From Dehalococcoidia bacterium (GTDB taxonomy: Bacteria; Chloroflexota; Dehalococcoidia; Dehalococcoidales; UBA3254), in NCBI GenBank assembly GCA_025361145.1, contig JANYAV010000018.1:1-64000 (forward strand): 64,000 bases of DNA, written 5' to 3'. The position numbers were made by a program, and so were the translations under genes. A model generated the notes under the pieces. It saw nothing but the letters and a program-made list of their open reading frames with translations. It searched no databases and had not been told where the DNA came from. Of this stretch, positions 37,815 to 55,342 are shown piece by piece (position 1 is the first letter of the stretch; each line of letters opens with the position of its first letter).

Positions 37815-38477
37815 ATGTCCAATATTCTCATAATTACTAAAGAAAAAGATAATGGTCGTAACCTGCAGATCAGGTTGTCTGAATTGGGGCATGGCTGTAT
37901 GGTTGCCTTATGGCGGGACGACTTAAGCGAAAAAATGGGCGGGGTAGTCCCAGACCTGGTGATGTTTGAGGCTGACGGCCATAATACCGGGGTTCTGAGC
38001 GGCCTGGTGCAGGGACTGAAAGCGAAATATAAGGCGGCCATAATGGCCATAGTAACCAACGAGGTTCTAAATAAACCAGACGAATACTCAGAGGTGGATG
38101 ATTTTATTGTTCAGCCCTTCGGCAACCGCGAGTTGATGCTGAGGATCAAGAGGCTAGTTAAAAAGAGCGAAGGGCAAAATAAAAGCCTCCATATCGGCAA
38201 TTTAAGAATTGACCTGGATAACTGTGAAGTCCGGGTGGCGGGAAAGACGATAGAGCTGACCTTTAAAGAATATGAACTGCTAAAATTCCTGATCAGGGAA
38301 CCCGGGCGGGTCTTTACCCGGGAAACACTGCTGAATAAAGTCTGGGGATACGACTATTTTGGCGGTGATCGCACGGTGGATGTGCATGTGAGGCGACTAA
38401 GGAGCAAGATCGAAACTACCGAGGAAATTTATATTGAAACTGTGCGCAACATCGGCTACCGTTTTAAGAAAGACTAA
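37815..38477 (+). CDS. Atypical OmpR/PhoB-family response regulator with degenerate receiver (GlnR-like)
   Basis: A 220-residue protein with a receiver-like domain (about 1-115) and a winged-helix trans_reg_C domain (about 125-220, with VRVAGKTIELTFKEYELL, VWGYDYFGGDRTVDVHVRRL and GYRFKKD). In the receiver the N-terminal acidic pair is replaced (ITKEKD), the phospho-Asp position is Glu52 (DLVMFEADG), and the invariant Lys is Gln100 (IVQPFG); Thr81 remains. It therefore probably works without phosphorylation, as GlnR of Actinobacteria does. No histidine kinase is adjacent. It sits in a hisHF operon just before the nitrogen block, whose promoters carry GlnR-style boxes. Confidence 0.85.
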   Translation: MSNILIITKEKDNGRNLQIRLSELGHGCMVALWRDDLSEKMGGVVPDLVMFEADGHNTGVLSGLVQGLKAKYKAAIMAIVTNEVLNKPDEYSEVDDFIVQPFGNRELMLRIKRLVKKSEGQNKSLHIGNLRIDLDNCEVRVAGKTIELTFKEYELLKFLIREPGRVFTRETLLNKVWGYDYFGGDRTVDVHVRRLRSKIETTEEIYIETVRNIGYRFKKD

Positions 38478-38483
38478 AAATCA

Positions 38484-38843
38484 TCAACAGGTCACGTGAA
38501 TCAGGGCCGCGACTTTCTCCCCGTCTTCGATATGCTGGTTGAATTTCTTGACGACCTGCGGAGAAGGCTCCATAGTGATATCGAGATTGGGTTCCATCAT
38601 ATAATACTCGGCATCGTGAGCCAGTCTCGCCATTCCCTGAAAACCGGTGCCAATCAGGATCACATCCGGAACATCTTTAACCAAACTCTCTATTTCACTG
38701 CGGGAAATAGTGTGACTGCCTAATCTGCCCTTGCCCCCGACACGTTCTTTGACTGTCCCATCAACCAGGATGATGACGTCATGGGAGTACTGCTTTTCAT
38801 CTACTACGATAAAGCCGAAATTAAAACTATCTATCCTGGTCAT
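38484..38843 (-). CDS. Mth938-like (DUF498/NDUFAF3-type) domain protein
   Basis: A 119-residue protein of the Mth938 fold. Markers are IDSFNFGFIVVDEKQYSHDVII near the N-terminus and PDVILIGTGFQGM in the middle. The family includes NDUFAF3, a complex I assembly factor in mitochondria; the bacterial role is unknown. I start at ATG 38843 with GAGGGT 7 nt upstream rather than at TTG 38858. It is convergent with the response regulator (6-bp gap). Confidence 0.75.
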   Translation of the reverse strand: MTRIDSFNFGFIVVDEKQYSHDVIILVDGTVKERVGGKGRLGSHTISRSEIESLVKDVPDVILIGTGFQGMARLAHDAEYYMMEPNLDITMEPSPQVVKKFNQHIEDGEKVAALIHVTC

Positions 38844-39044
38844 GATTTTTACCCTCAATGGCCTTCTTATCTTACCGGCTTTCCGCTTATAACCACCTCA
38901 GTGAATATACATTATATAACAAAATTCCTTTATTGCAATAGCTGGAAGGATAATAGGGATTGATCAATAAATCTATAATTAAAGAATAAAACTGTCAATA
39001 GGCTATTGTTTCGTTTTAATTTTAGTGCATTCAAATCATAAATT

Positions 39045-39082
39045 GTAACAAAGAGTTAACCTCCGTGTAACATGCCGGAAAT
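39045..39082 (+). promoter_or_regulatory. GlnR-type box upstream of amt1
   Basis: GTAAC (39045-39049), TTAAC (39056-39060), GTAAC (39067-39071) and GAAAT (39078-39082) occur at exact 11-bp steps with 6-bp spacers. This is the layout of the actinobacterial GlnR consensus gTnAC-n6-GaAAC-n6-GTnAC-n6-GAAAC. TATTAT at 39101-39106 could be the -10, with no -35 consensus, as for activator-dependent promoters. Confidence 0.65.
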
Positions 39083-39090
39083 ATAGTTCT
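39077..39090 (+). promoter_or_regulatory. NrpR-operator-like GGAA-N6-TTCT at amt1
   Basis: The sequence matches the methanogen NrpR operator GGAA-N6-TTCC at 7 of 8 fixed positions. It overlaps the last GlnR-type half-site and a TATAGT (39082-39087) that is an alternative -10. Confidence 0.4.
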
Positions 39091-39128
39091 CGTAAAATTG
39101 TATTATCTGGTGAATGGAGGTGCTTGGA

Positions 39129-40361
39129 ATGTCTGCTATTGATACTGGCAATACCGCCTGGATGTTGATATCAACTGCTCTGGTCATGTTGATGACTCCG
39201 GGCCTAGCCTTTTTTTACGGAGGCATGGTTCGTAGAAAAAATGCCCTATCGACGATCATGATGAGTTTCATGACATTGGGTTTGATTGGTGTTCTGTGGG
39301 TTCTATATGGTTACAGCCTGTCTTTCGGTCCTTCTATGGGTGGAATAATCGGTGATTTAAGCTGGTTTGGTTTAAATGGGGTTGGACAGGATCCCTCCAC
39401 TATATATGCTACTACAGTGCCTCATCTGGTTTTTATGGCTTTTCAAATGATGTTTGCTATCATCACTGTGGCTCTTATCACAGGAGCTGTAGTAGAAAGA
39501 ATGAAATTCAGTTCAATTTTAGTCTTTGCGGTAGCCTGGTTTACTCTCGTATATTGTCCGGTAGCTCACTGGGTCTGGAATAGTCAGGGTTGGTTATATA
39601 AATTGGGGGCCCTGGATTTTGCCGGAGGCACGGTGGTCCACATTAACGCCGGTGTTTCAGCCCTGGCCTTAGCGTTACTATTGGGTCCTCGTAAAGATTA
39701 TCATAAGGGCGTTAACATAGGGTCCCACAACGTACCGTTCGTGGTCATCGGCGCCGGCTTATTATGGTTCGGGTGGTTCGGCTTCAATGCGGGCAGCGCT
39801 CTGACTTCTGGTGGACTAGCCGCCAGTGCTTTCGTGGCCACCAACACAGCCGCTGCCGCTTCTGCCTTAACCTGGATGTTTTTAAGCTGGTTTTTCCACC
39901 GGCCTACTGTTTCAGGTATTGCCACCGGTGCGGTAGCCGGCTTAGTCGCGATTACTCCAGCAGCTGGTTTTGTTAGCCCAATTATGGGTATACCCATAGG
40001 AATTGGTGTGGCTCTGGTTTGTTTCTTTATGATGCGGCTGCGCAATAAAACCAGAATTGATGAGTCCCTGGATGTGTTCGCCTGTCATGGTATGGGTGGT
40101 ACCTTTGGAGCTATTGCAACCGGTATTTTTGCCAGCACAGCCTTAACTGCGGGTGCGGGTGGGCTGCTCAACGGCAACATCAAACAGGTTGGCATTCAAC
40201 TCTTAGCAACCGTGGTAGTCTGGGGGTTTGCTTTTATCATGACACTGGGTATAGGCAAAGTAATCGACCTAACCATGGGCTTGAGGGTAAGTGAAACTGA
40301 AGAATCAATTGGCCTGGATATTTCTCAGCATGGTGAATCAGCCTACGGTGATGAGTTATAG
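39129..40361 (+). CDS. amt: Ammonium transporter Amt (first copy)
   Basis: A membrane protein of 410 residues with about 11 helices. The N-terminus NTAWMLISTALVMLMTPGLAFFYGGMVRRKN, the paired pore region and the conserved His in VWNSQGWLYK and CHGMGGTFGAIATG contexts identify Amt. ATG 39129 is preferred because GGAGG (39116-39120) precedes it. glnK follows 9 bp after the stop, the usual Amt-P-II pair. The promoter bears a GlnR-type box. The second copy at 50802 is closely similar. Confidence 0.95.
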   Translation: MSAIDTGNTAWMLISTALVMLMTPGLAFFYGGMVRRKNALSTIMMSFMTLGLIGVLWVLYGYSLSFGPSMGGIIGDLSWFGLNGVGQDPSTIYATTVPHLVFMAFQMMFAIITVALITGAVVERMKFSSILVFAVAWFTLVYCPVAHWVWNSQGWLYKLGALDFAGGTVVHINAGVSALALALLLGPRKDYHKGVNIGSHNVPFVVIGAGLLWFGWFGFNAGSALTSGGLAASAFVATNTAAAASALTWMFLSWFFHRPTVSGIATGAVAGLVAITPAAGFVSPIMGIPIGIGVALVCFFMMRLRNKTRIDESLDVFACHGMGGTFGAIATGIFASTALTAGAGGLLNGNIKQVGIQLLATVVVWGFAFIMTLGIGKVIDLTMGLRVSETEESIGLDISQHGESAYGDEL

Positions 40362-40370
40362 GAGACTGAT

Positions 40371-40709
40371 ATGAAAAAGATTGAAGCGATTGTCCGGGAA
40401 GAAAGATTTCACTTAATAAAGATTGCGTTGGAAGAAAAAGGTTTTATCAGCATGACCGTCAGCGACATTATGGGCAGGGGCAAACAGAGAGGTATCTCGC
40501 TAAAGTGGCGGGTGGGGGAGCATAGAATCGAATTTTTACCCAAGAAGAAAATTGAAATATTTGTTGAAGACAAGGACTGCCAGATTGTGGTGGATACGAT
40601 TATTGAAAGGGCTAAGACCGGGGCGGTAGGTGACGGCAAGATATTCGTTTCGCCAGTCGAGGAAGTTTATAAAATCCGGACCGGCGAAACAGGCCCCGAA
40701 GCAATCTAG
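40371..40709 (+). CDS. glnK: P-II nitrogen regulatory protein with a divergent T-loop
   Basis: A 112-residue P-II protein: MKKIEAIVREERFHLIKIALEEKGFISMTV at the start, DIMGRGKQRG, then LPKKKIEIFV, and GDGKIFVSPVEEVYKIRTGE at the end. ATP-binding residues are conserved. In the T-loop the uridylylated Tyr51 is His, and Tyr46 is Trp (SLKWRVGEHRIEF), so modification by GlnD-type enzymes is not possible. It probably gates Amt by ATP/ADP/2-oxoglutarate binding alone. Two hairpins follow the gene. Confidence 0.93.
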   Translation: MKKIEAIVREERFHLIKIALEEKGFISMTVSDIMGRGKQRGISLKWRVGEHRIEFLPKKKIEIFVEDKDCQIVVDTIIERAKTGAVGDGKIFVSPVEEVYKIRTGETGPEAI

Positions 40710-40720
40710 CTTTTTGATAA

Positions 40721-40780
40721 GGAGACTGTCCGTAAAGCAACCCCCGCCCCAGCGAGATAAAGAATTAACGGACAGTCTCC
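40721..40780. repeat. 13-bp inverted repeat downstream of glnK
   Basis: GGAGACTGTCCGT (40721-40733) is perfectly complementary to 40768-40780, with a 34-nt loop containing CCCCGCCCCAG. It precedes a true terminator. It could be an mRNA 3' protection hairpin. Confidence 0.6.
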
Positions 40781-40790
40781 AGGAAATATA

Positions 40791-40836
40791 TTTCGGACTC
40801 GTTCTTATTTATTAAGCAACGAGTCCGAAATTTTTT
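40791..40836 (+). terminator. Intrinsic terminator of amt-glnK
   Basis: TTTCGGACTCGTT (40791-40803) pairs perfectly with 40818-40830 and is followed by six T. Confidence 0.88.
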
Positions 40837-40986
40837 AGGGGGTATCATTCAGATGAAACCTGCGGCAAGTTCCCATAACGCAAATTTCACTCATGCGGCA
40901 TAAATACCCCAAATATTACCGCTAGATATTAATGTCTTCTGCTATTATCACCAGTTTAGCCGCGTGCATCCCGCCGCTGCGTGTAT

Positions 40987-41063
40987 TTTACCCGATAATA
41001 AATGGATCATATGTTCGTGGCAGGGCGAGTTTTATTATAAAAAATTGACAATAATCGGGTAAA
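40987..41063. repeat. Pair of inverted TTTACCCGAT sites before the glutamate synthase operon
   Basis: TTTACCCGAT at 40987-40996 and its exact complement ATCGGGTAAA at 41054-41063 lie 57 bp apart. The second sits between the -35 and -10 of the operon promoter. The 391-bp gap 40837-41227 has no gene. The two sites may be half-sites for a looping regulator. Confidence 0.45.
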
Positions 41064-41073
41064 CTGTTAAATT
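41045..41073 (+). promoter_or_regulatory. Promoter of the glutamate synthase operon
   Basis: TTGACA at 41045-41050 and TAAATT at 41068-41073 are 17 bp apart. GGCA-N6-TTCC at 41085-41098 (7 of 8 to the NrpR operator) lies just after the expected start. A weak GlnR-type series TTAAA-n6-GTAAT-n6-TTATT is at 41146-41172. Confidence 0.6.
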
Positions 41074-41227
41074 TAGGTATATGCGGCAACCACTTTCCGC
41101 AATATTGGGAAGTCCTAAAATCATACCTTTTAAAATATGATCTTCTTAAATTAACTGTAATTAAAGCTTATTCTAGTCATGGTGCTTGTTTCCAATCACT
41201 TTAGATAGCGAAGAAAGAGAATAATAA

Positions 41228-43072
41228 ATGATGAAAACAGATGAACTTAAAACCAAGCTAGGCAACATTAAAACCCTCGAAAGGGTAGAAGAAAGAGAGA
41301 TGTACAGTCATGACATCGGCGATTTACCGCTGATCATGACTAAAACCATGTTTAAAATTCTACCCGATATAGTTGTACAGCCTAAAAATGCGGATGAGAT
41401 TAAAAAGGTAGTTGAGATTGCTAATAATTTGAAAATTCCGGTGGTAACGCGGGGGGCTGCTTCCTGGGGTTTCGGCGGGGTTATCCCCACCCGTGGGGGA
41501 ATTGTGATTGACTTGTCCCCTTTCCGCAAAGTCGGGCCGATTGACACGGCTCAAAAGACCGTTACCGTACAGGCGGGCGCTCGTTGGAGCGATATTGATA
41601 TCGTTGCCAGGAAAGTTGGACTATGTTTGATGACTTACCCATCTAGCAAATTTTCCACAGTAGGCGGCTGGATCGCGACAGGTGGATACAGCATCAATAA
41701 CTATAAGTACGGCCACCTGTCAAAGCAGATTGTATCTATGACGGTCGTAACTGGTACTGGTGAAATTAAGAAGCTAACCCAGGTGGATCCCGAATTCCCC
41801 CATTACATATCAAGCGAGGGTGAGTTCGGCATAATAGTTGAGGTAATCCTTAAGCTGCGGGATATTCCTCAGGGTTCATACTCCCACCTTTTATATTTTG
41901 CGAACGACAAAGAAGCCTTCGTTTTCATTGATAAGTTCGTTAAAAATTCATCCCCTGTTCAGCTCAAGCCGAATGTTATTCGCTTTCTTGATGCGAACCA
42001 TCTGGGCGATATTAACCAGCTTATGCGGAACAGCTTTTTTAAAAAGAGCGCAGCGGTTTTATTTGAATTTGGCAGCGCCACTGAGGATGCTGAATTTGCC
42101 AAATATTTAGCGTCGATTAATAACCTTGAAGAAGCGCCTACTTACTTGGCGGATTACCTCTGGAATGAGCGCCTTTTCGGTATGAAAACCAAGCGTTTAG
42201 GGCCTACCATCCTGGCCAGTGAGGTCATTATGCCTATTACCGAAACAGCAGCCTTTATAGCGAAGGCCAAGAAGCTGGGGGCGAATTTCGGGGCTGAGAT
42301 TTACATCGACTCATATATCATCGATTCTAAGGATGCTCTTACTATGGCTACTTTTCTGTGTGATTCAAGAAGGAAGAGATATATTATAAGCTTGCCTCTG
42401 GTAGCCATGCTCACCAAGACGGCGATCGGATTAGGGGCTAAGCCTTACGGACTCGGCCTCTGGAATGCCGGCTATATCAATGCTCTGTACAGCAGCGAAG
42501 AACAAACTAAACTTAAAGCTTACAAAGCCAAGGTTGATCCAAACGATATCTTGAATCCTGGTAAATCCTTCGGTCTTGGTCCCAAAGGTCTTTCGGGCCT
42601 GGTTTTCAGTCCAGCTTTTTTTAATCCAGCGATAGGTCTCCTGGCTTTCACCGCCCCCGTGACCGGTAAAATCTTCTCTGCCCTCCTGGGAAAAGATAAG
42701 AAGGTCGATAATCTTGACCTTCAGTTGAGCACGCACGCTTGTGCCAAATGCGGCAACTGCATGGCGGTATGTCCTGCTTATCTGGTCACCGGTAATGAAG
42801 AGCTAACAGCTAAAGGGAAGATCGCTATAGCTAAAAAACTACAGGCTGGCAAGTCCGTGACCAAGGAGGAAGCGTCTGCTGCCTTCCTTTGTATGCATTG
42901 CAAAGCCTGTGAGTCGATCTGCCAAACCAATCTTGAATTGATGAACCTCTGGGATGCCCTGGAAAAGAAGCTGGAGGGTCAGTTCAGTCGGCCTGAGGCT
43001 CAGATCACGGAATTCCTTAAAAAAGTGGATGATAGTAAGGAGTTCTGGGACATGGTGGAACGGAACAACTAA
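41228..43072 (+). CDS. GlcD-like FAD-binding oxidoreductase with C-terminal 4Fe-4S domain
   Basis: A 614-residue protein. An FAD_binding_4 (PCMH) domain spans about 40-225, including VVTRGAASWGFGGVIPTRGG and STVGGWIATGGYSINNYKYG. An FAD-oxidase C-terminal region follows, and then two cysteine motifs of GlpC/GlcF type (CAKCGNCMAVCPAY near 505 and CMHCKACESICQTN near 560). Such proteins oxidise 2-hydroxy acids or act as electron-transfer subunits. Here it opens an operon with glutamate synthase subunits and no GltD is present, so it may feed electrons to the synthase (inference). Start ATG 41228 (another ATG follows at once). Confidence 0.75.
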   Translation: MMKTDELKTKLGNIKTLERVEEREMYSHDIGDLPLIMTKTMFKILPDIVVQPKNADEIKKVVEIANNLKIPVVTRGAASWGFGGVIPTRGGIVIDLSPFRKVGPIDTAQKTVTVQAGARWSDIDIVARKVGLCLMTYPSSKFSTVGGWIATGGYSINNYKYGHLSKQIVSMTVVTGTGEIKKLTQVDPEFPHYISSEGEFGIIVEVILKLRDIPQGSYSHLLYFANDKEAFVFIDKFVKNSSPVQLKPNVIRFLDANHLGDINQLMRNSFFKKSAAVLFEFGSATEDAEFAKYLASINNLEEAPTYLADYLWNERLFGMKTKRLGPTILASEVIMPITETAAFIAKAKKLGANFGAEIYIDSYIIDSKDALTMATFLCDSRRKRYIISLPLVAMLTKTAIGLGAKPYGLGLWNAGYINALYSSEEQTKLKAYKAKVDPNDILNPGKSFGLGPKGLSGLVFSPAFFNPAIGLLAFTAPVTGKIFSALLGKDKKVDNLDLQLSTHACAKCGNCMAVCPAYLVTGNEELTAKGKIAIAKKLQAGKSVTKEEASAAFLCMHCKACESICQTNLELMNLWDALEKKLEGQFSRPEAQITEFLKKVDDSKEFWDMVERNN

Positions 43073-43115
43073 ACTACCAGATATAAAAATAATTTAGAAA
43101 AGACGGATAAAGATT

Positions 43116-44516
43116 ATGCCGAAAAAGTATCACATCACGCCCAAACCTGCTCCCCTCGATATGGACTACGTATTTAAATTTACAATCGTCCGTGGGGAAA
43201 ACTGCATCAATTGCGGTAAATGTATCAAGGTCTGTATTTATGAAGCGCATAAACGCCGCACTGACGATCCCCGCAAGATGGCTGATCCCAACACTGTGGT
43301 ATGCAGAAACTGTTTCCGTTGCATTCAGGAATGTCCGCGGGGAGCACTGGAAAAATCTATCAATAAGGATTATTCCAATATCGGTGGTGCGTTCTGGAAG
43401 CCCGATATATTGATGAGCCTTTGGAAGCAGGCTGAGGATGGGAACGTACCCGTATCGGGTGCCGGTTACCGCGGACCCTTTACCGGAATTGGTTTCGACA
43501 GCATGTGGACCGATATGTCAGAGATTGTGCGCCCGACCCGGGATGGCATCCATGGACGTGAATATATTAACACCGGTGTTGACCTGGGTAGTAAACTCAA
43601 TCATCTGACTTTTGATTCTAACGGACAACTAATTTCCGTTGTTCCTGAGACAATAGATCTTCCTTTCCCGATACTTTTCGATATCACGGCTTATAAGCTA
43701 AGTTTACATGTTAAAGAAGCTATTTTAAAGGCTGCTTCTGTCATCCAGACCTGCTTAATCATACCGGTTACTGAGATTACACCTGAACTGGAAAAACATA
43801 GCGATAACATCATCCCCAGCCTTGCTTCTACGGATATCGATAAGCATGAGGCTATTCTCAAAAAGGCACGGCTGGTGGCTATCGACTATAGCGATGCAAT
43901 GTTGAAAGATTTCCAGGCCTTAAAGGAAAAAATAAAAAAGCATAATCATGCCCTGACCATCGTTCGCGTTCCAGCTGTCAAGAATGTTGAAGAAATCGTT
44001 GCGAAGTTAACACAAAATGGGGCTGAAATTATCCAAATCGTGGCCGATTACCGTGGCCAGGAGATCAATGAATCATCAGGAAAAGATGGTCGCCTTCTAA
44101 AAGACATCATTCGGGCTATTCACAGCAGATTGGTGGAAGACAAAATCCGCGATAGCGTTACTCTTGTCGCCTCGGGTGGTATTGGCATGGCGGAGCATGT
44201 ACCGAAGGCCATGCTCTGTGGTTCTGACCTGACGGCTATAGACATTCCCCTGCTGGTGGCCCTGGGTGTCAGGGTCTTTGAAGAACCGCAGAAATTGCTG
44301 GTATTCCCTGAAGGTCTGGATAAGATACCTTCTAGAAAACTTACACAACGTATAGTTAATCTCATGGGGGCCTGGCATTCTCAGATTCTCGAAATGATGG
44401 GCGCTATGGGCATCCGTGAAGCAAGACGTTTGCGTGGAGAATCCGGACGCGCGATATTTTTCGAAGAAATAGACAGAGAATCCTTTGGGAAATTATTTAA
44501 AAAAGAGAAGCGTTAA
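43116..44516 (+). CDS. Ferredoxin-domain protein with degenerate glutamate-synthase FMN domain
   Basis: A 466-residue paralogue of the next gene product. The N-terminal 100 residues hold two 4Fe-4S motifs (CINCGKCIKVC and CRNCFRCIQECPRGA). The rest aligns in order with the GltB2 barrel, but the FMN/2-oxoglutarate motif GGYGGTGAAP and the 3Fe-4S cysteines of the true subunit are missing. DYRGQEINESSGKDG stands in that region, while TLVASGGIGMAEHVPKAMLCG is retained. It is probably catalytically inert and electron-carrying or structural. ATG 43116. Confidence 0.7.
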   Translation: MPKKYHITPKPAPLDMDYVFKFTIVRGENCINCGKCIKVCIYEAHKRRTDDPRKMADPNTVVCRNCFRCIQECPRGALEKSINKDYSNIGGAFWKPDILMSLWKQAEDGNVPVSGAGYRGPFTGIGFDSMWTDMSEIVRPTRDGIHGREYINTGVDLGSKLNHLTFDSNGQLISVVPETIDLPFPILFDITAYKLSLHVKEAILKAASVIQTCLIIPVTEITPELEKHSDNIIPSLASTDIDKHEAILKKARLVAIDYSDAMLKDFQALKEKIKKHNHALTIVRVPAVKNVEEIVAKLTQNGAEIIQIVADYRGQEINESSGKDGRLLKDIIRAIHSRLVEDKIRDSVTLVASGGIGMAEHVPKAMLCGSDLTAIDIPLLVALGVRVFEEPQKLLVFPEGLDKIPSRKLTQRIVNLMGAWHSQILEMMGAMGIREARRLRGESGRAIFFEEIDRESFGKLFKKEKR

Positions 44517-44517
44517 T

Positions 44518-45999
44518 ATGAAACCATCAACCGTAAAAATCAATAAGATGCCTTCCCGGTTCAAACACCAGGTTCCGAAATATAAGGTTACCCGTTCTGA
44601 TGCTTGCATAAACTGTGGCACATGCGCCAAGACCTGTCCTTACGGTGTGCATGAAAGATCTGAGGGGCATAATAAAGTCAAGCCCCCTATCGATTATAAA
44701 TGTATCGGTTTTGAGTGCCAGAGCAAGGATTTCTGTTGTATCACCAAATGCCCACGTAAGGCTTTAAGCCTATCGCTGAACCCTATGTATAACACGCTGG
44801 GCGATCCCCGCTGGACCGCGGATATGATAACTGGTACCTGGATCATGGCTGAGACCGGTTATCCGCCTGAGCGCACTGACCTCGATTATAACGTTGGCAA
44901 TTCCGGCGGCGGGTTTGACAAGTTGCGCTTCAAGTTTCCAGCAAAACCTGCAAAAGTCGATAAAGCCGAGATTTCAACAGCTATTCCTTTGAATCGTCGG
45001 AAAGACGGGCGAGCGGATGTTGTGATCTCTACGCCTGTTTATGGTGGCGGCATGTCCTTTGGGTCGGTCAGTCTTTCTACCATGGTTTCCAAGGCACATA
45101 ATGCGACTATCTGGAATACTTTTACCTGCACCGGGGAAGGGGGTTTTCCCGATATACTTAAACCGTATTGTGATCATGTCATCACACAGGTCGCCACCGG
45201 GCTTTTTGGCGTCCGCGAAGAGACGATTCAAAGGGTCAAGATTGTGGAATTAAAATATGCTCAGGGTGCCAAACCTGGTTTGGGGGGACACCTGCTGGGT
45301 GAAAAAAACACTGAAGCTGTCGCTAAAATGCGTGAGGCTGTCAAAGGTACCTCACTATTTTCGCCCTTCCCTTTCCATTCGGTATATTCCATCGAAGACC
45401 ATAAAAAGCACATCGACTGGATCAAAGCTGTCAATCCCACGGCTCTGTTGTCCGTCAAGGTTTCAACCCCCAATGATGTCGATATGGTAGCTGTCGGGTC
45501 ATACTATGCAGGTGCCCATATTATCCATATCGATGGGGGATATGGTGGAACCGGGGCCGCCCCTGATATAGCCAAGAAAAACATTGCTATGCCTATTGAA
45601 TACGCCATCACCAAGGTCCATAACTTCCTGAAGGCAGAAGGTGTTCGTGATGCTATTACGCTGATTGCTTCAGGCGGCATCCGGACCGCTCATGATCTAG
45701 CTAAAGCTATCTGTTTGGGCGCCAATGGTGCGGTGATTGGCACCGCTGAACTGGTGGCTCTGGAGTGCGTTCGTTGCGGCAATTGTGAATCGGGACGCGG
45801 CTGTTCAAGGGGCATTGCCACCACAGATTCAGTACTGGCAGATTTATTTGACGAGAAGTGGGCAACACAGCGCTTGACCAACATGTACAATGCCTGGAAC
45901 GTCCAACTGGTCGATATCCTCCAGAAATTCGGCATGCATGACGTCAGTGAACTGGTGGGAAGGACCGACCTGTTGGAGCATATAGATTACAGTCATTAA
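44518..45999 (+). CDS. Glutamate synthase catalytic (FMN/Fe-S) subunit, archaeal-type GltB2
   Basis: A 493-residue protein. N-terminal ferredoxin motifs (CINCGTCAKTCPYG, and a modified second cluster CQSKDFCCITKCPRKA) precede the FMN TIM barrel, which has the signature HIDGGYGGTGAAPD, the ASGGIRTAHDLAKAICLGA segment, and the 3Fe-4S ligands CVRCGNCESGRGC. It makes glutamate from 2-oxoglutarate and ammonia channelled from the glutaminase subunit. ATG 44518 lies 1 bp after the previous stop, with AAGAGAAG upstream. Confidence 0.88.
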   Translation: MKPSTVKINKMPSRFKHQVPKYKVTRSDACINCGTCAKTCPYGVHERSEGHNKVKPPIDYKCIGFECQSKDFCCITKCPRKALSLSLNPMYNTLGDPRWTADMITGTWIMAETGYPPERTDLDYNVGNSGGGFDKLRFKFPAKPAKVDKAEISTAIPLNRRKDGRADVVISTPVYGGGMSFGSVSLSTMVSKAHNATIWNTFTCTGEGGFPDILKPYCDHVITQVATGLFGVREETIQRVKIVELKYAQGAKPGLGGHLLGEKNTEAVAKMREAVKGTSLFSPFPFHSVYSIEDHKKHIDWIKAVNPTALLSVKVSTPNDVDMVAVGSYYAGAHIIHIDGGYGGTGAAPDIAKKNIAMPIEYAITKVHNFLKAEGVRDAITLIASGGIRTAHDLAKAICLGANGAVIGTAELVALECVRCGNCESGRGCSRGIATTDSVLADLFDEKWATQRLTNMYNAWNVQLVDILQKFGMHDVSELVGRTDLLEHIDYSH

Positions 46000-46016
46000 A
46001 GGGAGTCTGATAAAAA

Positions 46017-48653
46017 ATGGATAACTCTGAAATAATATTGTCCTCACGTAACGAAATGTGCAAGCAACTACCGGTTTCCGCCTCCAATACTGAAGAGGAA
46101 GGCGGTTGTGGTGTCACCGGGTTTGTCTGTTCCATACCGGTTACCGGTAAAAATATCTTTGAGCCATCAGCCCAGATGCATAACCGCGGCAATGGTAAGG
46201 GCGGCGGCATCGGAGCGGTCGGTTTTGTTCCCGAAGCGCTGGGTGTGTCCAGGCAGGTACTGGATGATGACTATATGCTGCATATAGCTCTGCTGGATGC
46301 AAGTGCGGCTAATGAAATTGAAAACACTTTTATTAAACCATTTTTTAAGATTGATAAATTTGAAAAGCTAGCCACCCTTGACGACCACCGCAGTATTGGC
46401 CTGGAGGTAAGACCTCCGGATATTATGCGCTATTTCGTGCGAGTTAAGGACGACGTTCTCGATGGATTTATTAAGGAAAAGCATTTCACGTCGCTGGATC
46501 GGAGAGATGCTGAGGACGAGTTCGTTTATCAGAATAGCTTCAAGATTAATAAGCAATATTATGCCTCTCTCGGTGAGAAAAAAGCCTTTGTAATGTCCCA
46601 TGGCCGAAACATGATGATTTTGAAAATCGTTGGTTACGCTGAAAATGTGGTTCGTTATTATAAGCTGGATGATTTTAAAGCGCATGTTTGGTTGGCGCAC
46701 CAGCGCTATCCAACTCGCGGGCGCGTCTGGCATCCGGGTGGATGTCACCCCTTCAGCGCTCTTAACGAAGCTTTGGTACACAATGGCGACTTTGCCAACT
46801 ACCAGTCTATTTACGAATATCTCAAACAGCGGAATTACCATCCCCTGTTTCTGACCGATACAGAGGAAGCGGCACTTTTACTCGATCTCTGGAGTAGGGT
46901 CTACAAATACCCTCTGGAGTATCTGATCGAGGCGTTGGCCCCCACCTCGGAGATGGACTTCGATATGCTCCCGCCACATAAGCAGGCATTGTACAAGGCT
47001 ATCCAGACACATCACGTCCCTGTGTCTCCCGATGGTCCATGGTTCTTTATTATCGCTCGCAATGAGGTAAAGACTCAGCAGTTCCAATTGATCGGTATCA
47101 CTGATACAGCCATGCTCAGGCCGCAGGTGTTTGCCCTGCAAGAGGGAGAGGTGCAGATCGGGTTGATTTGCTCTGAAAAACAGGCCATTGATGCGACACT
47201 GATCTCCCTCCAGCGGGAAGATTCGCGTTTTAGGCCGATTGCTGATAAGTACTGGAATGCCCGCGGTGGCAGTTATACCGATGGCGGAGCTTTTATTTTC
47301 AGTCTGAAGGACACTGGTTCAGGTAACAAGCAGCTTATTTGCTCTGACAAATTTGGTAAGGTTATCGAAACAGTCAAAAATAAGGCTATTTTAGATATTT
47401 CTAAAGAATTGAAAGTTACCACAGCCGAAGATAAAGCTCTCACGGAGAGCGTCCGTAATTTATTTGTAGAGAAAAGCAGTGATGTCGCGGCAAACAAAGT
47501 TTTCGCTTTTGTCCGTGATAATATTGAGAAATTTAGCGCTGAGAATTTTAGATTAACGATTGAAACTATCAAAGCTCAGTCCCTTATTAACGATGGTTTC
47601 AGGCAAACGGCTATAACAGCCCTGACTATTTTAAACGACCGGCGCTACAATACCGGCAAATTCAAGAGAAGTTCTGTGCTGCATGTCTTGAAAATTAATC
47701 TGGATGAAATCTTAGCTGCGACACCCGGGATAAACGACACGATGGCTTCACGTTTCCGCCAAATTGATTTTGCCACTCGGGGTAATCTGAAGGCTCCTAA
47801 GCAACTTGAAGAAGTTTTGGTCATCAACGCTGAACATTTTGAGCCTGAAGGAGAAAACTGCGACGCGGTATTAATTGTTAAGGCATACAAACTCGGTTGG
47901 CGGCGCTTTATAGTCTATAAATACCGTGGGCAGCGTTTTACAGGTTGCGGCTGCGGTGTGGCAACCGAAGGTGCTCGGATTGATGTCTACGGTTCATCCG
48001 GAGACTATCTATCGTCAGGTATCGATGGCATGCAGATTTATGTACACGGCAACGCCCAGGATCAACTCGGCCAAATCATGAAAGAGGGCAAGTTAGTTGT
48101 TTTCGGCGATGTTGGACAGACCTTTATGTACGGTGCTAAAGGCGGAACTGCATATGTTATGGGTAACGCCGCGGGTCGGCCTCTGATCAACGCCGTCGGT
48201 AAACCTCGTGTGGTTATTAACGGAACTGCCCTGGACTATCTGGCAGAATCGTTTATGGCGGGAGACCCTTTAAATGGGGGCGGATTTGTTATCCTGAATG
48301 GCATCGGATTTGATGACAATAATGGGGCAGTTCGGGAGTTGGAAGAGCCGTATCCGGGCTCCAATATCTTTTCACTGGCATCCGGAGGGGCAATCTATGT
48401 ACGCGATCCGCAACGGAAACTGGTTGAAGAACAGCTTAATGGCGGTGAGTTTACCAGTATTACGGACACTGATTGGCAATTGATAAAACCCTACCTGGAA
48501 GAGAATGAGAAGCTTTTTGACATCACCCTCGATCGGCTTTTAACCGTTGATAGTAAGAAGATGGCTCCAGTGGACGTCTATAGAAAGATCATACCCAAAA
48601 AGAAACCCGTTTTCACTAAAGATGATGACGGGTTGACTGAGACCTGGCACTAA
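46017..48653 (+). CDS. Glutamate synthase glutaminase domain fused to GXGXG domain (GltB1-GltB3)
   Basis: An 878-residue protein. A class II glutamine amidotransferase domain (about 31-420) has the nucleophile Cys31 in EGGCGVTGF. This suggests removal of a 30-residue propeptide. HNGDFANYQ and LAHQRYPTRG are further Ntn motifs. After a helical linker, the right-handed beta-helix GXGXG domain (about 640-800) shows repeated G-rich turns (VYGSSGDYLSSG, GAKGGTAYVMGNAAG). In canonical GltB the FMN domain lies between these two; here it is a separate gene. A terminator follows at 48683. Confidence 0.85.
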   Translation: MDNSEIILSSRNEMCKQLPVSASNTEEEGGCGVTGFVCSIPVTGKNIFEPSAQMHNRGNGKGGGIGAVGFVPEALGVSRQVLDDDYMLHIALLDASAANEIENTFIKPFFKIDKFEKLATLDDHRSIGLEVRPPDIMRYFVRVKDDVLDGFIKEKHFTSLDRRDAEDEFVYQNSFKINKQYYASLGEKKAFVMSHGRNMMILKIVGYAENVVRYYKLDDFKAHVWLAHQRYPTRGRVWHPGGCHPFSALNEALVHNGDFANYQSIYEYLKQRNYHPLFLTDTEEAALLLDLWSRVYKYPLEYLIEALAPTSEMDFDMLPPHKQALYKAIQTHHVPVSPDGPWFFIIARNEVKTQQFQLIGITDTAMLRPQVFALQEGEVQIGLICSEKQAIDATLISLQREDSRFRPIADKYWNARGGSYTDGGAFIFSLKDTGSGNKQLICSDKFGKVIETVKNKAILDISKELKVTTAEDKALTESVRNLFVEKSSDVAANKVFAFVRDNIEKFSAENFRLTIETIKAQSLINDGFRQTAITALTILNDRRYNTGKFKRSSVLHVLKINLDEILAATPGINDTMASRFRQIDFATRGNLKAPKQLEEVLVINAEHFEPEGENCDAVLIVKAYKLGWRRFIVYKYRGQRFTGCGCGVATEGARIDVYGSSGDYLSSGIDGMQIYVHGNAQDQLGQIMKEGKLVVFGDVGQTFMYGAKGGTAYVMGNAAGRPLINAVGKPRVVINGTALDYLAESFMAGDPLNGGGFVILNGIGFDDNNGAVRELEEPYPGSNIFSLASGGAIYVRDPQRKLVEEQLNGGEFTSITDTDWQLIKPYLEENEKLFDITLDRLLTVDSKKMAPVDVYRKIIPKKKPVFTKDDDGLTETWH

Positions 48654-48682
48654 AGGTATCAATTTCAGTAAGCGATAAAGTT

Positions 48683-48732
48683 GTCCGGCAAGAGCATAAT
48701 CTTAATGATATGCCAACCTTGCCGGACTTTTT
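48683..48732 (+). terminator. Terminator of the glutamate synthase operon
   Basis: GTCCGGCAAG (48683-48692) pairs with CTTGCCGGAC (48718-48727) across a 25-nt loop and is followed by TTTTTA. Confidence 0.75.
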
Positions 48733-48908
48733 ATTACACAATACCTAGCGGTAATATGGTTCCAATGTAAAGCGCTCAATTTTAAGCGCGATCGCTGCTT
48801 AATTCCAATTGTGCTACAATGTTAAAAAAGAGTTTTTGTATTATTTTTGCGAGCATTGCCCCAAATAAGTTGACACAGCTACATTGCAATTATTGTTTGG
48901 AGGTTGTT

Positions 48909-50702
48909 ATGCCCTATCAGGTCACCAACAAAAAACTCAATGAATGGGTTAATGACATAACCGAATTATGCCAACCAGAAAAACTTCATTGGTGCGATGG
49001 AACACAAGATGAATATAACCTTTTGATGGCTCAAATGGTTGCGGAGGGAAGGGCTATTCCTCTTAAAAAGTGCCCCAACAGTTTTCTGTTCCGCTCAGAC
49101 CCGAGCGACGTTGCTCGTGTCGAATCGAGAACCTTTATTGCCACCAAAAATCGTGAGAGTGTAGGGCCAACCAATAACTGGGTGGATACTGACGAACTCA
49201 AGCAGACAATGACAGCTTTATATGCAGGCTGTATGAAGGGACGCACAATGTACCTGATCCCCTTTTCCATGGGACCTGTTGGTTCCCCAATATCCAAACT
49301 GGCTGTTCAGATTACTGACAGTTCTTATGTTGTCTGCAACATGCACATCATGGCACGCGTTGGGACTGAAGTGGTTGCAGCTATAAATAACGGTGAAGAT
49401 TTTATTGAGTGTCTCCATTCTGTTGGTGCCCCACTACAAAAAGGACAAAAAGACGTTCCCTGGCCCTGTGCCCCTATAGAAAAGAAATATATCAGTCATT
49501 TCCCGGAAGAGAACTCTATTTGGTCTTTCGGGTCTGGTTATGGTGGTAATGCCCTCCTTGGAAAGAAGTGTTTGGGATTGCGTCTCGCATCTGCTATCGC
49601 AAAACGTGAAGGCTGGATGGCAGAACACATGCTTATATTGCGCTTGATTAATCCTCAGGGTAAAAAATACCATGTTGCTGCTGCTTTCCCATCAGCTTGC
49701 GGTAAAACCAATTTAGCCATGATCCAGCCAGCCGTACCGGGGTGGAAAGTCGAATGCATTGGTGACGATATCGCCTGGATGAAGGTTGCACAGGACGGGA
49801 AATTGCATGCGATCAACCCGGAGGCCGGCTTTTTTGGAGTGGCTCCCGGCACTTCTTATAAGTCCAACCCAGTATGTATGGAATTGATAAAAGAAGGCAC
49901 GATTTTTACAAACTGCGCTTTGACTGATGATGGAGACGTGTGGTGGGAGGGTATGGATGGGGAAAAGCCCCTGCATGCCATTGACTGGAAGGGGAATAAC
50001 TGGAACCCAGCACATAAGGAACCAGCAGCTCATGGGAATGCCCGTTTTACCGCTGCTGCGAAACGCTGCCCTGCCATATGCCCCGATTGGGAAAATCCCC
50101 AGGGAGTGCCAATTGATATCTTCATATTTGGCGGTCGTCGTTCTGCGGTTGTCCCTCTGGTTACAGAGGCATTTAATTGGGATCATGGTGTCTTTCTTGG
50201 AGCAACTGTCGCATCAGAACCTACTGCGGCCGTTCTGGATAATGTTGGTATAAGGTATGACCCCTTCGCGATTCTGCCTTTCTGTGGATATAACATGGCA
50301 GACTATTTTCAGCATCAGTTCGATATGGGAGATAAACTAAAAAGCAAGGCTCCAAGAATATTCTACGTCAATTGGTTTAGGAAAAGCCAAGATGGTGGGT
50401 GGTTATGGCCTGGATTCGGGGAAAATATTCGGGCTTTAATTTGGATGTGCGAGCGCATTGAAGGCAGAGCAGGGGCTAAGCAAACCCCCATAGGTTACGT
50501 GCCTGAAGAGAAAGATCTGGACTTAACCGGGTTAAGTATAACTCAGGCAAAAATTAGTGAACTGCTAAGTGTTGATCCAGAAGTTTGGAAAGCCGAAATT
50601 CCTAAGATGGAGAAATTCTTTTCACAATTCGGCGATCATCTTCCTGCACGGTTACGTAAACAACTTGATGAGCTAAAAAGCCGTTTGTCATTAAACGTTT
50701 AA
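48909..50702 (+). CDS. pckG: Phosphoenolpyruvate carboxykinase (GTP)
   Basis: A 597-residue GTP-dependent PEPCK interconverting oxaloacetate and PEP. The P-loop region AAFPSACGKTNLAMI, the metal-binding and omega-loop areas, and FIFGGRRSAVVPLV are typical of the GTP form. Start ATG 48909 with GGAGG at 48899-48903; the longer frame upstream has no SD. TGCTACAAT (48812-48820) is an extended -10 about 90 bp upstream, and TTGACA at 48870-48875 may be part of a second promoter. It links carbon skeletons to the surrounding nitrogen genes only by position. Confidence 0.95.
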   Translation: MPYQVTNKKLNEWVNDITELCQPEKLHWCDGTQDEYNLLMAQMVAEGRAIPLKKCPNSFLFRSDPSDVARVESRTFIATKNRESVGPTNNWVDTDELKQTMTALYAGCMKGRTMYLIPFSMGPVGSPISKLAVQITDSSYVVCNMHIMARVGTEVVAAINNGEDFIECLHSVGAPLQKGQKDVPWPCAPIEKKYISHFPEENSIWSFGSGYGGNALLGKKCLGLRLASAIAKREGWMAEHMLILRLINPQGKKYHVAAAFPSACGKTNLAMIQPAVPGWKVECIGDDIAWMKVAQDGKLHAINPEAGFFGVAPGTSYKSNPVCMELIKEGTIFTNCALTDDGDVWWEGMDGEKPLHAIDWKGNNWNPAHKEPAAHGNARFTAAAKRCPAICPDWENPQGVPIDIFIFGGRRSAVVPLVTEAFNWDHGVFLGATVASEPTAAVLDNVGIRYDPFAILPFCGYNMADYFQHQFDMGDKLKSKAPRIFYVNWFRKSQDGGWLWPGFGENIRALIWMCERIEGRAGAKQTPIGYVPEEKDLDLTGLSITQAKISELLSVDPEVWKAEIPKMEKFFSQFGDHLPARLRKQLDELKSRLSLNV

Positions 50703-50739
50703 ATCTATCATGTCAGCTGTATAAACCCGCAGAACTGAT

Positions 50740-50755
50740 GTAATCTGTTTGAAAC
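50740..50755 (+). promoter_or_regulatory. GlnR-type half box upstream of amt2
   Basis: GTAAT (50740-50744), six bases, then GAAAC (50751-50755) match the a-b unit of a GlnR box. A weak GTCTT follows at the next 11-bp step. TATTAT at 50775-50780 may be the -10, at nearly the same distance from the box as at amt1. Confidence 0.5.
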
Positions 50756-50801
50756 AATTAGGTCTTAAACTGAGTATTATACAATTGGGAGGGACCTTTT
50801 T

Positions 50802-52031
50802 GTGTCTATAAATGCGGCCGATACTGCCTGGATGTTGGTTTCTACTGCCATGGTCATGCTGATGACCCCCGGAGTCGCTCTGTTCTACGGCGGCATGGTG
50901 CGTAGTAAAAATGTTCTTTCCACGATCATGATGAGTTTTATGTCGCTGGGCGTAATCGGGATTTTGTGGGCTTTATATGGTTATAGTTTGGCTTTCGGCA
51001 GCGATTTCGGCGGCGTGATAGGTGGACTGGACTATATCGGTTTAAGAAATGTTGGTCAGTCTCCCTCCAGTATTTATGCTACTACTGTGCCTCACCTAGT
51101 TTTTATGATATACCAGATGATGTTCGCCGTGATAACGGTGGCCCTGATAAGCGGCGCTGTAGTAGAGCGTATTAAATTCGGCGCCATTCTGGTTTTTTCC
51201 GTTTTATGGTTCACCCTAGTCTATTGTCCGGTAGCGCATTGGGTCTGGGGAGGAGGATGGCTGGCTAAGCTGGGAGTATTAGATTTCGCGGGTGGACTAG
51301 TGGTACATATTACCGCGGGTGTCTCGGCTTTTGCTATGGCTGTTCTGCTTGGCCCGCGCAAGGGCCTCTCTGACGGATCTTCCATGTCCGCGCATAATGT
51401 GCCATTAGTCGTGATCGGAGCAGGGCTATTATGGTTCGGTTGGTTTGGTTTTAATGGTGGCAGCGCCTTGACCTCCGGTGGTCTGGCTGCCAGCGCCTTC
51501 GTTACAACCAATATGGCCGCGGCAGCAGGAGCTTTTACCTGGATGATGTTAAGTTGGTATTTCCGGCGGCCAACTGTAACAGGTATTGTTACCGGAGCTG
51601 TGGCCGGATTGGGTGCGGTCACACCGGCTTCGGGCTATATCACGCCGATGATGGGCATAGTGGTCGGTGTAGTAGCTGCAATTATTGCTTACTTCTGTAT
51701 TCTCTTCAGAACACGCCGTAAGATTGATGAATCACTGGATGTTTGGGCGGTGCACGGTATGGGTGGTACTTGGGGCACTCTCGCTGGTGGTCTTTTTGCT
51801 GCTTTGACGGTTAATGCGGCCGGCTCCAATGGTCTGTTTTATGGCAACGGGCTCTTCTTTTTAAAACAATTGCTGGCGGTGGTAGTGATTTGGGCTTTTG
51901 CCTTTGGTATGACCTGGGCGATTGGTAAATTAGTGGATCTTATTATGGGGCTAAGAGTGAATGCCACCGAAGAAAGTGTCGGACTGGATATCTCTCAGCA
52001 TGGCGAGTCGGCCTACGGGGAAGATCTTTAA
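50802..52031 (+). CDS. amt: Ammonium transporter Amt (second copy)
   Basis: A 409-residue Amt protein closely similar to the copy at 39129 (DTAWMLVSTAMVMLMTPGVALFYGGMVRSKN; the ends VGLDISQHGESAYGEDL are nearly identical). The conserved pore His is in VHGMGGTWGTLAGG. GTG start 50802 with GGGAGGG 8 nt upstream. It is followed by glnA 133 bp downstream with its own promoter. No P-II gene accompanies this copy. Confidence 0.95.
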   Translation: MSINAADTAWMLVSTAMVMLMTPGVALFYGGMVRSKNVLSTIMMSFMSLGVIGILWALYGYSLAFGSDFGGVIGGLDYIGLRNVGQSPSSIYATTVPHLVFMIYQMMFAVITVALISGAVVERIKFGAILVFSVLWFTLVYCPVAHWVWGGGWLAKLGVLDFAGGLVVHITAGVSAFAMAVLLGPRKGLSDGSSMSAHNVPLVVIGAGLLWFGWFGFNGGSALTSGGLAASAFVTTNMAAAAGAFTWMMLSWYFRRPTVTGIVTGAVAGLGAVTPASGYITPMMGIVVGVVAAIIAYFCILFRTRRKIDESLDVWAVHGMGGTWGTLAGGLFAALTVNAAGSNGLFYGNGLFFLKQLLAVVVIWAFAFGMTWAIGKLVDLIMGLRVNATEESVGLDISQHGESAYGEDL

Positions 52032-52063
52032 GAGTCAGGATTTAGGGACACTGATTTTTAAAT

Positions 52064-52106
52064 TTAACATAAATGTAATATGTTTGAAATATTAATTCCC
52101 TAGAAT
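52064..52106 (+). promoter_or_regulatory. GlnR-type box and -10 of glnA
   Basis: TTAAC (52064-52068), GTAAT (52075-52079) and GAAAT (52086-52090) lie at exact 11-bp steps, the same b-a-b order as at amt1. TAGAAT at 52101-52106 is a good -10. GAAA-N6-TTCC at 52086-52099 also matches the NrpR operator at 7 of 8 positions and covers the promoter core. Confidence 0.6.
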
Positions 52107-52164: not shown

Positions 52165-53526
52165 ATGGCACTGGCAAAGAAAGGCAATTCAGAAGGGAAA
52201 GAATACATTTTGAAAATGGCCCGTGAACACAACGTCAAATTTGTGGAGTTATGGTTTACCGATATCCTGGGACAGCTTAAGAGCTACGCTATTCCGGTTT
52301 CTGAATTAGAAGGCGCGATAGATTCCGGTATGGGCTTCGACGGCTCATCTGTTGAAGGTTTCTCTCGTATCGATGAAAGCGATATGATGTCTGTACCGGA
52401 CACGGATACCTTCCAGTTATTGCCCTGGAGACCCAGAGAGGATGTCGGTTTGGCTAGAATGATCACCGATGTCTGCCAACCTGGTGGTAAGCCTTTTGAA
52501 GGCGATCCACGCCAGGTCCTAAAGCGGAACCTTAAAAAGGCCACCGATATGGGCTATACCTACTATGTGGGTCCTGAACTGGAATATTTCTACTTTAAGA
52601 ATGACAAAGATGGTGCCCCGACTACAGAAGGTCTTGATAAGGGTGGTTATTATGATATGACCATTCTGGATGCTGCAACCGAGCTGAGAAACGAGACCGT
52701 TCTAGCTCTGGAAGAGATGGGAATCGGAGTTGACAAGTCCCACCATGAAGTGGCCATCAGTCAGCATGAAATCGATATGAGATACACCGACGCTTTGACT
52801 ATGGCCGATCAGGTTATGACCTACCGTCTTATCGTAAAAGAGATCGCCGCTAAACACGGTGTTTATGCCACCTTCATGCCAAAACCCATTTATGGCATCA
52901 ACGGCAGTGGTATGCACGTCCATCAGTCCCTCTTTAAGAATGGCAAGAACGCTTTCTTTGAGAAAGGGAATCTGTTTAATCTATCCACTGTAGCCCAGAG
53001 TTTTGTAGCTGGTCTCTTAAAATATGCCCCGGAATTTACCGCAGTTACCAACCAGTGGGTCAATTCTTACAAGCGTTTGGTTCCTGGTTATGAAGCACCT
53101 GTTTATCTATCCTGGGCCATCCGCAACCGTTCCGATCTGATTAGAGTTCCAGGTTATGAGCCCGGCAAAGAAAACGCCACTCGCTTTGAAATCCGTTCTC
53201 CTGATCCGGCCTGCAATCCTTATCTTTGCTTCAGCGTTTTGCTGGCTGCGGGTCTTAAAGGTATTGAAGAAGGTCTTAAACCACCAGCCCCAGCTGAGGG
53301 CAACGTCTATCATATGTCCGATGAGCAGAGAATGAAACTGGGCATCGGCACTCTGCCCGGCAACCTGAAAGAAGCCATCCAGTTGATGGAGAAGAGCAAG
53401 CTGGTTAAAGAAGCCCTAGGCGAACATTGCTTTGAAGCCTTTATCGAAAATAAGAAAGCTGAATGGGACAAATTCCGCACTCGCGTCACTGACTTCGAGC
53501 TGAAGGAATATTTGCCCATCATTTAA
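52165..53526 (+). CDS. glnA: Glutamine synthetase, type I alpha
   Basis: A 453-residue enzyme making glutamine from glutamate, ammonia and ATP. Motifs are GMGFDGSSVEGFSRIDESDM, VGPELEYFYFK, NGSGMHVHQSLF, and RSPDPACNPYLCFSVLLAAGL. The length and the segment after PAPAEGNVYHMSDEQR lack the insertion and the NLYDLP adenylylation motif of type beta. Control by GlnE-type adenylylation is therefore not expected. ATG 52165 with AGGAGG upstream. A strong terminator follows. Confidence 0.96.
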   Translation: MALAKKGNSEGKEYILKMAREHNVKFVELWFTDILGQLKSYAIPVSELEGAIDSGMGFDGSSVEGFSRIDESDMMSVPDTDTFQLLPWRPREDVGLARMITDVCQPGGKPFEGDPRQVLKRNLKKATDMGYTYYVGPELEYFYFKNDKDGAPTTEGLDKGGYYDMTILDAATELRNETVLALEEMGIGVDKSHHEVAISQHEIDMRYTDALTMADQVMTYRLIVKEIAAKHGVYATFMPKPIYGINGSGMHVHQSLFKNGKNAFFEKGNLFNLSTVAQSFVAGLLKYAPEFTAVTNQWVNSYKRLVPGYEAPVYLSWAIRNRSDLIRVPGYEPGKENATRFEIRSPDPACNPYLCFSVLLAAGLKGIEEGLKPPAPAEGNVYHMSDEQRMKLGIGTLPGNLKEAIQLMEKSKLVKEALGEHCFEAFIENKKAEWDKFRTRVTDFELKEYLPII

Positions 53527-54310: not shown

Positions 54311-55342
54311 GTGTCTAACAACAACTTGAGAGAAGACAGGGATAATAAAGTAGTTCAGGGTTCGGGTTCTGATAACGAACGTAAAATTATCTCTATTTTA
54401 AAAGTTCTCAGTGAATCATCCGAACCGTTGGGATCGATTACTATTGCCCGCGAATTGGAACGCTATGGTATTTTCCTAAGTGAAAGGGCTATACGCTATC
54501 ACCTCACGATTACTGATGAGCGTGGTTATACTCATCCTATGGGCAGGGACGGCCGTATGCTGACATCCCAGGGAGTAGAGGAATTGCGTATGGCATTGGC
54601 TCCCGATCAGGTGGGTTTTATCCTGGACAAACTGGAATTGCTGGCTTTCCGCACCACACTCAATCCGCTTGATAGGAGTGGACTGGTACCGATCAATACC
54701 TCCATTTTAGACGTCAATAAATTTGATAAAGCCCTGGTCATTATGAAAGAAATCTTTAAGGCTGGATTGGCGGTCAGCGATCTGGTGATTACCGCTCGAG
54801 AAGGGGAGAAGATCGGTTCAGTGATTGTACCTCAAGGGAAAGTTGGCCTGGGTACGGTTTGCAGCGTGGTAGTAAACGGAGTTCTGCTTAAGGCCGGTAT
54901 TCCCATCGAATCACGATTCGGGGGAGTGCTGGAAATCCGCGATAGTAAACCCCGGCGTTTTGTATCCTTGATCAGCTATAGTGGCACTTCGCTCGACCCA
55001 TCTGAACAATACATCCGGGCAGGGATGACAGCGGTTACTAGCGCTGCCCATGGCAGCGGCAAGATATTGGCTAATTTCCGTGAAATACCCGCTTTGGCAC
55101 GCAGCTTGGTGGATGAGAAAATCACCCAATTGAAGACTGTAGGGATTCATGGTGTTTACCTGCTAGGTAATACCAGCGAACCTATCTGCCAGATTGCCGT
55201 TGGATTGAACCGAGTAGGATTAATTATGGTGGGTGGTTTGAATCCGGTAGCGGCAGTAGCAGAAGCTGGTATTGAAGTTGAAAATATATCTGAAAGCGGC
55301 CTGGTAGAATACCGCCAGCTTCAGAGCATCCAGAGTCTTTAA
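54311..55342 (+). CDS. nrpR: NrpR-family nitrogen regulator (HTH plus one NrpR/DUF128 domain)
   Basis: A 343-residue protein. An N-terminal winged helix (about 24-85, ILKVLSESSEPLGSITIARELE, ERAIRYHLTITDERGYTHPMG) precedes a single NrpR effector domain (about 100-340, GLGTVCSVVVNGVLLKAGIP, SRFGGVLEI, GLIMVGGLNPVAAVAEAGIE). In methanogens NrpR represses nif and gln genes at GGAA-N6-TTCC sites and is released by 2-oxoglutarate. Bacterial homologues are rarer. The genes around it (glnA, amt, glutamate synthase) make a nitrogen role likely. GTG start 54311 with GAGG upstream. Confidence 0.88.
   Translation: MSNNNLREDRDNKVVQGSGSDNERKIISILKVLSESSEPLGSITIARELERYGIFLSERAIRYHLTITDERGYTHPMGRDGRMLTSQGVEELRMALAPDQVGFILDKLELLAFRTTLNPLDRSGLVPINTSILDVNKFDKALVIMKEIFKAGLAVSDLVITAREGEKIGSVIVPQGKVGLGTVCSVVVNGVLLKAGIPIESRFGGVLEIRDSKPRRFVSLISYSGTSLDPSEQYIRAGMTAVTSAAHGSGKILANFREIPALARSLVDEKITQLKTVGIHGVYLLGNTSEPICQIAVGLNRVGLIMVGGLNPVAAVAEAGIEVENISESGLVEYRQLQSIQSL

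Follow-up and report, generated by a model that had tools for sequence, protein, structure and literature searches.

We identified in Chloroflexota, outside Actinobacteria, a regulator that is very probably an activator of nitrogen assimilation of the GlnR type and that, judged from its sequence, would act independently of phosphorylation. Its gene lies in a 64,000-nucleotide stretch of a Dehalococcoidia genome (the window), close to ammonium transporter and glutamine synthetase genes whose promoters carry 11-nt-phased boxes. A GlnR-type regulon outside Actinobacteria had been proposed in a sequence-only reading of this DNA, and the proposal is supported by conservation of the boxes, by a common clade with GlnR and by a genome-wide scan. 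GlnR has so far been treated as an actinomycete regulator, known from soil actinobacteria; a regulator of this type is conserved, together with its boxes, in another phylum, Dehalococcoides included. Among the papers listed by our literature searches we found no description of an OmpR-type GlnR in Chloroflexi or Dehalococcoides, and none of a nitrogen regulator of Dehalococcoides. The regulator is called REG below, and the features of the window are as follows.

37815-38477, + strand: REG, GlnR-type orphan regulator of the OmpR/PhoB family, 220 aa, degenerate receiver plus winged helix
38484-38858, - strand: small DUF498 gene between REG and amt1
39045-39082, + strand: four 11-nt-phased boxes upstream of amt1, GTAAC-n6-TTAAC-n6-GTAAC-n6-GAAAT (held-out matrix score 38.0)
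39093-39098, + strand: -10 element TAAAAT of amt1, 10 nt past the last box (TAnnnT position fixed in 19 amt promoters)
39114-40361, + strand: amt1, ammonium transporter (open reading frame; likely start 39129)
40371-40709, + strand: PII signalling protein (GlnB/GlnK), downstream of amt1 (PF00543, 1.7e-26)
50740-50755, + strand: two boxes upstream of amt2, GTAAT-n6-GAAAC (matrix score 21.6; exact match to two boxes plus -10 element)
50766-50771, + strand: -10 element TAAACT of amt2
50802-52031, + strand: amt2, ammonium transporter (TIGR00836, 1.8e-138)
52064-52090, + strand: three boxes upstream of glnA, TTAAC-n6-GTAAT-n6-GAAAT (matrix score 30.8; exact match)
52101-52106, + strand: -10 element TAGAAT of glnA
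52165-53526, + strand: glnA, type I glutamine synthetase (TIGR00653, 2.7e-160)
54311-55342, + strand: NrpR, archaeal-type nitrogen repressor (NRD1_2, 3.9e-75; HTH_12, 1.7e-17)

REG is a pseudo-receiver protein of the GlnR clade

The only Pfam match of the window REG is Trans_reg_C (3.7e-29). Response_reg gives no match in this protein and is matched in 23 of the 37 members of the REG family (E<=0.1). The nearest NCBIfam models are those of PhoB, YycF and MtrA, with scores far under their cut-offs. An AlphaFold model based on 37 orthologs (pLDDT 89) reveals an alpha/beta receiver-like domain followed by a winged helix, which is the OmpR/PhoB architecture; at a pTM of 0.58 the arrangement of the two domains is uncertain. 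Foldseek returns M. tuberculosis GlnR in a transcription complex (8hih) as the best match to the model, and the GlnR chains 8hig, 8hih and 8hml are the closest solved chains in both single-sequence and family-profile searches. The Pfam family GlnR_1st was rejected as a marker: 15 of the 37 members match it at E<=0.1, the window REG not among them, but it also matches ordinary receivers, and the Chloroflexota matches inspected elsewhere are ordinary OmpR-type regulators.

Phosphorylated response regulators of the PhoB/PhoP type carry an acidic pair, an Asp and a Lys, none of which the window REG has at its site. K9-E10 replaces the acidic pair, E52 occupies the phospho-Asp site within the stretch E52-A53-D54, and Q100 stands at the Lys site; Glu52, Gln100 and the missing acidic pair had been read from the sequence before. 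Across the family the Asp site holds Glu in 20 members, Asp in 7 and another residue in 10, and the Lys is retained in 14. The same reading described actinobacterial GlnR as devoid of functional phosphorylation residues. Asp-50 of GlnR is unphosphorylated, but the residue itself is kept and is required for dimerisation (PMC10704036). Since actinobacterial GlnR retains D50, Glu52 marks a difference from GlnR and not a common trait. Most REG proteins carry Glu at this site, which implies a variant of GlnR whose dimer contacts must differ.

In a maximum-likelihood tree of full-length proteins (80 rows, including as non-GlnR comparison 36 paralogous OmpR-type regulators plus MtrA, RegX3, PhoP and PrrA), REG and actinobacterial GlnR form one clade with support of 97/95. 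PhoP of M. tuberculosis, MtrA, RegX3 and PrrA all fall outside it, so that REG groups with GlnR and not with regulators of those types. The YycF/WalR branch adjoins the clade from outside, with low support, and a REG-like protein from another Dehalococcoidia order lies on the GlnR side of the tree, with weak support. The DNA-binding domain alone recovers the same split (97/86); the grouping is therefore not an artefact of decayed receivers.

The order Dehalococcoidales contains 36 REG orthologs, and in a phylum-wide sample REG is present in 18 of 201 genomes (E <= 1e-34), all 18 inside the class. In nearly all of the 36 mapped loci, REG is preceded by hisH/hisF and by genes for a split glutamate synthase, and amt, PII and glnA come after it, in many cases with NrpR next. 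The window REG likewise comes after hisH-hisF, and the DUF498 gene on the opposite strand parts it from amt1-PII. The mapped neighbours, the only ones annotated, are nitrogen and histidine genes. No kinase gene adjoins REG in the ORF list of the window, and REG is thus an orphan regulator at the level of the locus; unlinked kinases may exist. A search with amt1 as the query recovered it from 36 of 81 genomes. The start of this gene in the window probably lies at 39129, behind a GGAGGTG, rather than at 39114. Beyond the PII gene, on its 3' side, an inverted repeat (ggagactgtccgt ... acggacagtctcc, 40720-40850) was spotted by eye; it is possibly a terminator or a small mobile element.

Phased boxes at nitrogen promoters

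To score the boxes we built a 56-nt matrix from 19 amt promoters, all taken from other families; neither the family of the window nor Dehalococcoides contributed to it. On both strands of the window it finds only the amt1, glnA and amt2 sites, all else scoring below 14, and the phased 5-mers at these three promoters have the sequences reported from first inspection. A further box suggested there for glutamate synthase, TTAAA-n6-GTAAT-n6-TTATT at 41146-41172, was already called weak; it scores -16.8 and was rejected. Markov-random sequence (2-3 Mb) yields no score of 8 or above, with one of 3 million random positions reaching 7, and reversed sequence yields none of 7 or above over 1.3 million positions. 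AT-rich promoters might be expected to form such repeats by chance. With no random or reversed sequence attaining the scores of the boxes, and with the boxes conserved across many families, this explanation is refuted.

The 1.70-Mb genome has the exact three-box pattern in only two places, ahead of amt1 and ahead of glnA. Two boxes plus TAnnnT occur at exactly six places, namely amt1, amt2, glnA, a glutamine synthetase III gene on contig C19 (matrix score 7.3, borderline) and two copies of one identical repeat. The genome scan with the phased motif thus returns nitrogen genes.

The boxes are also kept in orthologous promoters of related genomes. In most relatives the amt promoters follow the consensus TTAAC-n6-GTAAC-n6-GTAAT-n6-GAAAC, which ends 10 nt before TAnnnT; where the ammonium transporter has a signal-peptide-like extension, the box sits further upstream. 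Box pairs in amt promoters are spaced by 11 nt (80 pairs), 22 nt (53) or 33 nt (31), against a mean of 0.7-0.9 pairs per spacing in shuffled promoters. In 650 kb of sequence from relatives, nearly all sites with a matrix score of at least 12 stand before an amt, PII or glnA gene; two further sites are found ahead of amt genes that are truncated or offset, and another (13.0) ahead of the ferredoxin-type gene with which the cluster begins in a Dehalococcoides-like genome.

Further predicted targets in relatives belong to nitrogen fixation and nitrite assimilation. A box scoring 38.3 precedes nifH-nifI1-nifI2-nifD in a Dehalogenimonas-like genome (L333 2097-2152, - strand), one of 28.5 precedes a NifV-like homocitrate synthase gene, and boxes of 25 and 32 precede a PII-like gene that has a gene resembling assimilatory nitrite reductase, nirA, behind it (L336 2082-2137, - strand; L225 1490-1545). 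A D. mccartyi 195-sized genome encodes a second, diverged GlnR-like gene upstream of modABC and a nif operon (L340 8666-9274, - strand), with a box of its own (20.7). We examined the methylglyoxal synthase gene mgsA, with the matrix fixed beforehand, because a review names methylglyoxal synthase genes, together with nif, ammonium transporter and PII genes, as markers of nitrogen status in D. mccartyi 195 (PMC3462421, citing Lee et al. 2012). A box scoring 19.8 lies 42 nt upstream of mgsA (L413 9248-9303) and is the only strong match in 400 kb of that 195-sized genome, the next, at another place, scoring 7.4. In the same order, two genera of one family have genomes of 1.4-1.9 Mb with 20-30 reductive dehalogenases each.

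Boxes and regulator occur together. Of the 38 genomes with REG, 33 contain the 43-nt box pattern when one mismatch is allowed, against 4 of the 43 that lack REG; the Fisher p of 4e-13 overstates independence, because the genomes share ancestry, and is descriptive only. The four genomes with boxes and no detected REG (G001, G011, G013 and G071) are mostly incomplete assemblies or one-mismatch matches, and two amt genes from genomes without detected REG carry no box. Exact matches to the 43-nt pattern occur in 13 of the 201 genomes of the phylum sample; apart from one genome with three similar copies, these all belong to the class. Separately, a box scoring 27.2 was noted ahead of a gene for a P-type ATPase, adjacent to NrpR (L337 476-531), in a genome without detected REG.

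Discussion

In the mechanism that we propose, the pseudo-receiver of REG would dimerise without Asp phosphorylation, and the tandem winged-helix domains would bind two to four direct repeats, one per helical turn. Repeats ending 10 nt upstream of the TAnnnT -10 element would cover the -35 region, and under a shortage of fixed nitrogen bound REG would recruit RNA polymerase at amt1-PII, amt2, glnA and glnN. Activation is favoured over repression because the boxes lie over the -35 region and the predicted targets are nitrogen-responsive. The first candidate for the signal to REG is PII, encoded beside amt1.

The gene for NrpR beside glnA was missed in the sequence-only reading and is a second candidate nitrogen regulator. 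It forms a glnA-pdxT-nrpR cluster and is present in 63 of 81 relatives, and a second copy, on the contig of which the window is part (G000:C6:110710-111672), lies beside another OmpR-type regulator. Being this close, NrpR could dominate nitrogen control, with REG and its boxes belonging elsewhere or being secondary; one-mismatch GGAA-n6-TTCC sites at amt1 (39077-39090) and glnA (52086-52099) would fit such a role. However, such sites are at background, with 33 in the window against 36 expected, and 4 in amt promoters against 2.2 expected (p 0.14), none of them exact. The direct-repeat boxes differ from NrpR-type palindromes, and among NrpR-bearing genomes they follow REG (33 of 38 with REG, 3 of 25 without). 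We therefore give little credence to NrpR as the regulator of these promoters. As the archaeal operator is not enriched in the window or at amt promoters, NrpR is a possible partner rather than the owner of the boxes, that is, a neighbour and possible co-regulator of the nitrogen genes.

Ownership of the boxes by another OmpR/PhoB-type regulator, such as one like PhoP or WalR, is more improbable still. The whole family binds 11-nt direct repeats, the sites of B. subtilis PhoP and WalR are similar 11-nt repeats, and the genome encodes 14 proteins with a DNA-binding domain of this type. Yet the targets of the boxes are almost exclusively nitrogen genes, the box sequence fits the GlnR consensus, and the boxes co-occur with REG, which itself lies beside a box-bearing amt promoter. 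Somewhat less remote, but unlikely, is that REG is a GlnR relative that is nevertheless phosphorylated, at least in some species, through an unlinked kinase. Phosphorylation is possible in parts of the family, since 14 members keep the Lys and 7 the Asp, and Glu is able to mimic phospho-Asp. In the window REG and most orthologs, though, the acidic pair is replaced and the Asp lost, no kinase gene stands beside REG in the window, and its closest relatives act unphosphorylated (PMC10704036).

With REG as a GlnR-type activator, a broader scheme can be put forward tentatively. Dehalococcoidia may control nitrogen through this activator, most members of which have Glu at the Asp site of GlnR, acting alongside PII and an NrpR of archaeal type. 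In that case the lineage of GlnR would either be older than the Actinobacteria/Chloroflexota divide or have crossed it, and in organohalide-respiring bacteria both nitrogen fixation and methylglyoxal synthase would be under its control. A conserved regulon of this kind offers a concrete candidate for nitrogen control in Dehalococcoides and Dehalogenimonas, which matter for the cleanup of chlorinated solvents. REG also provides an evolutionary comparison for phosphorylation-free pseudo-receivers, with Glu where actinobacteria retain Asp.

Comparison with known systems

Among known regulators of nitrogen, archaeal NrpR shares the gene cluster with REG but is an unrelated protein with a palindromic GGAA-n6-TTCC operator. 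The GlnR of Firmicutes shares its name and the glnA target with OmpR-type GlnR; it is an unrelated protein of the MerR family, and its operator differs from the OmpR-type boxes. B. subtilis PhoP and WalR and E. coli PhoB belong to the same protein superfamily as REG and bind 11-nt direct repeats over the -35 region; unlike REG, they are two-component regulators with phosphate or cell-wall targets.

The closest counterpart is actinobacterial GlnR (S. coelicolor, S. erythraea, M. tuberculosis), which like REG is an orphan OmpR/PhoB-type regulator with a pseudo-receiver and falls in the same clade. Both share the DNA-binding helix RTVDVHVRRLR and the wing TVRN(I/V)GY, and both have 11-nt-phased GTAAC/GAAAC boxes, of the gTnAC/GaAAC form, at nitrogen-assimilation promoters; the M. 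smegmatis box, t/gTAAC-n6-Gc/aAAC (PMC10704036), matches the units of the REG box. REG differs in its phylum, in the location of its gene inside a hisH/hisF-glutamate synthase-amt-PII-glnA cluster, in its coexistence with NrpR and in a regulon that is apparently much smaller, and its boxes, unlike those of GlnR, also occur at nif and mgsA in relatives. Asp-50, which in GlnR belongs to a charge network with Arg-52 and Thr-9, is replaced by Glu (20 of 37) or another residue (10 of 37) in most REG proteins, and the window REG has no Arg-52 partner. From these comparisons, REG would work like GlnR, from within the GlnR clade, minus one structural feature of the actinobacterial protein.
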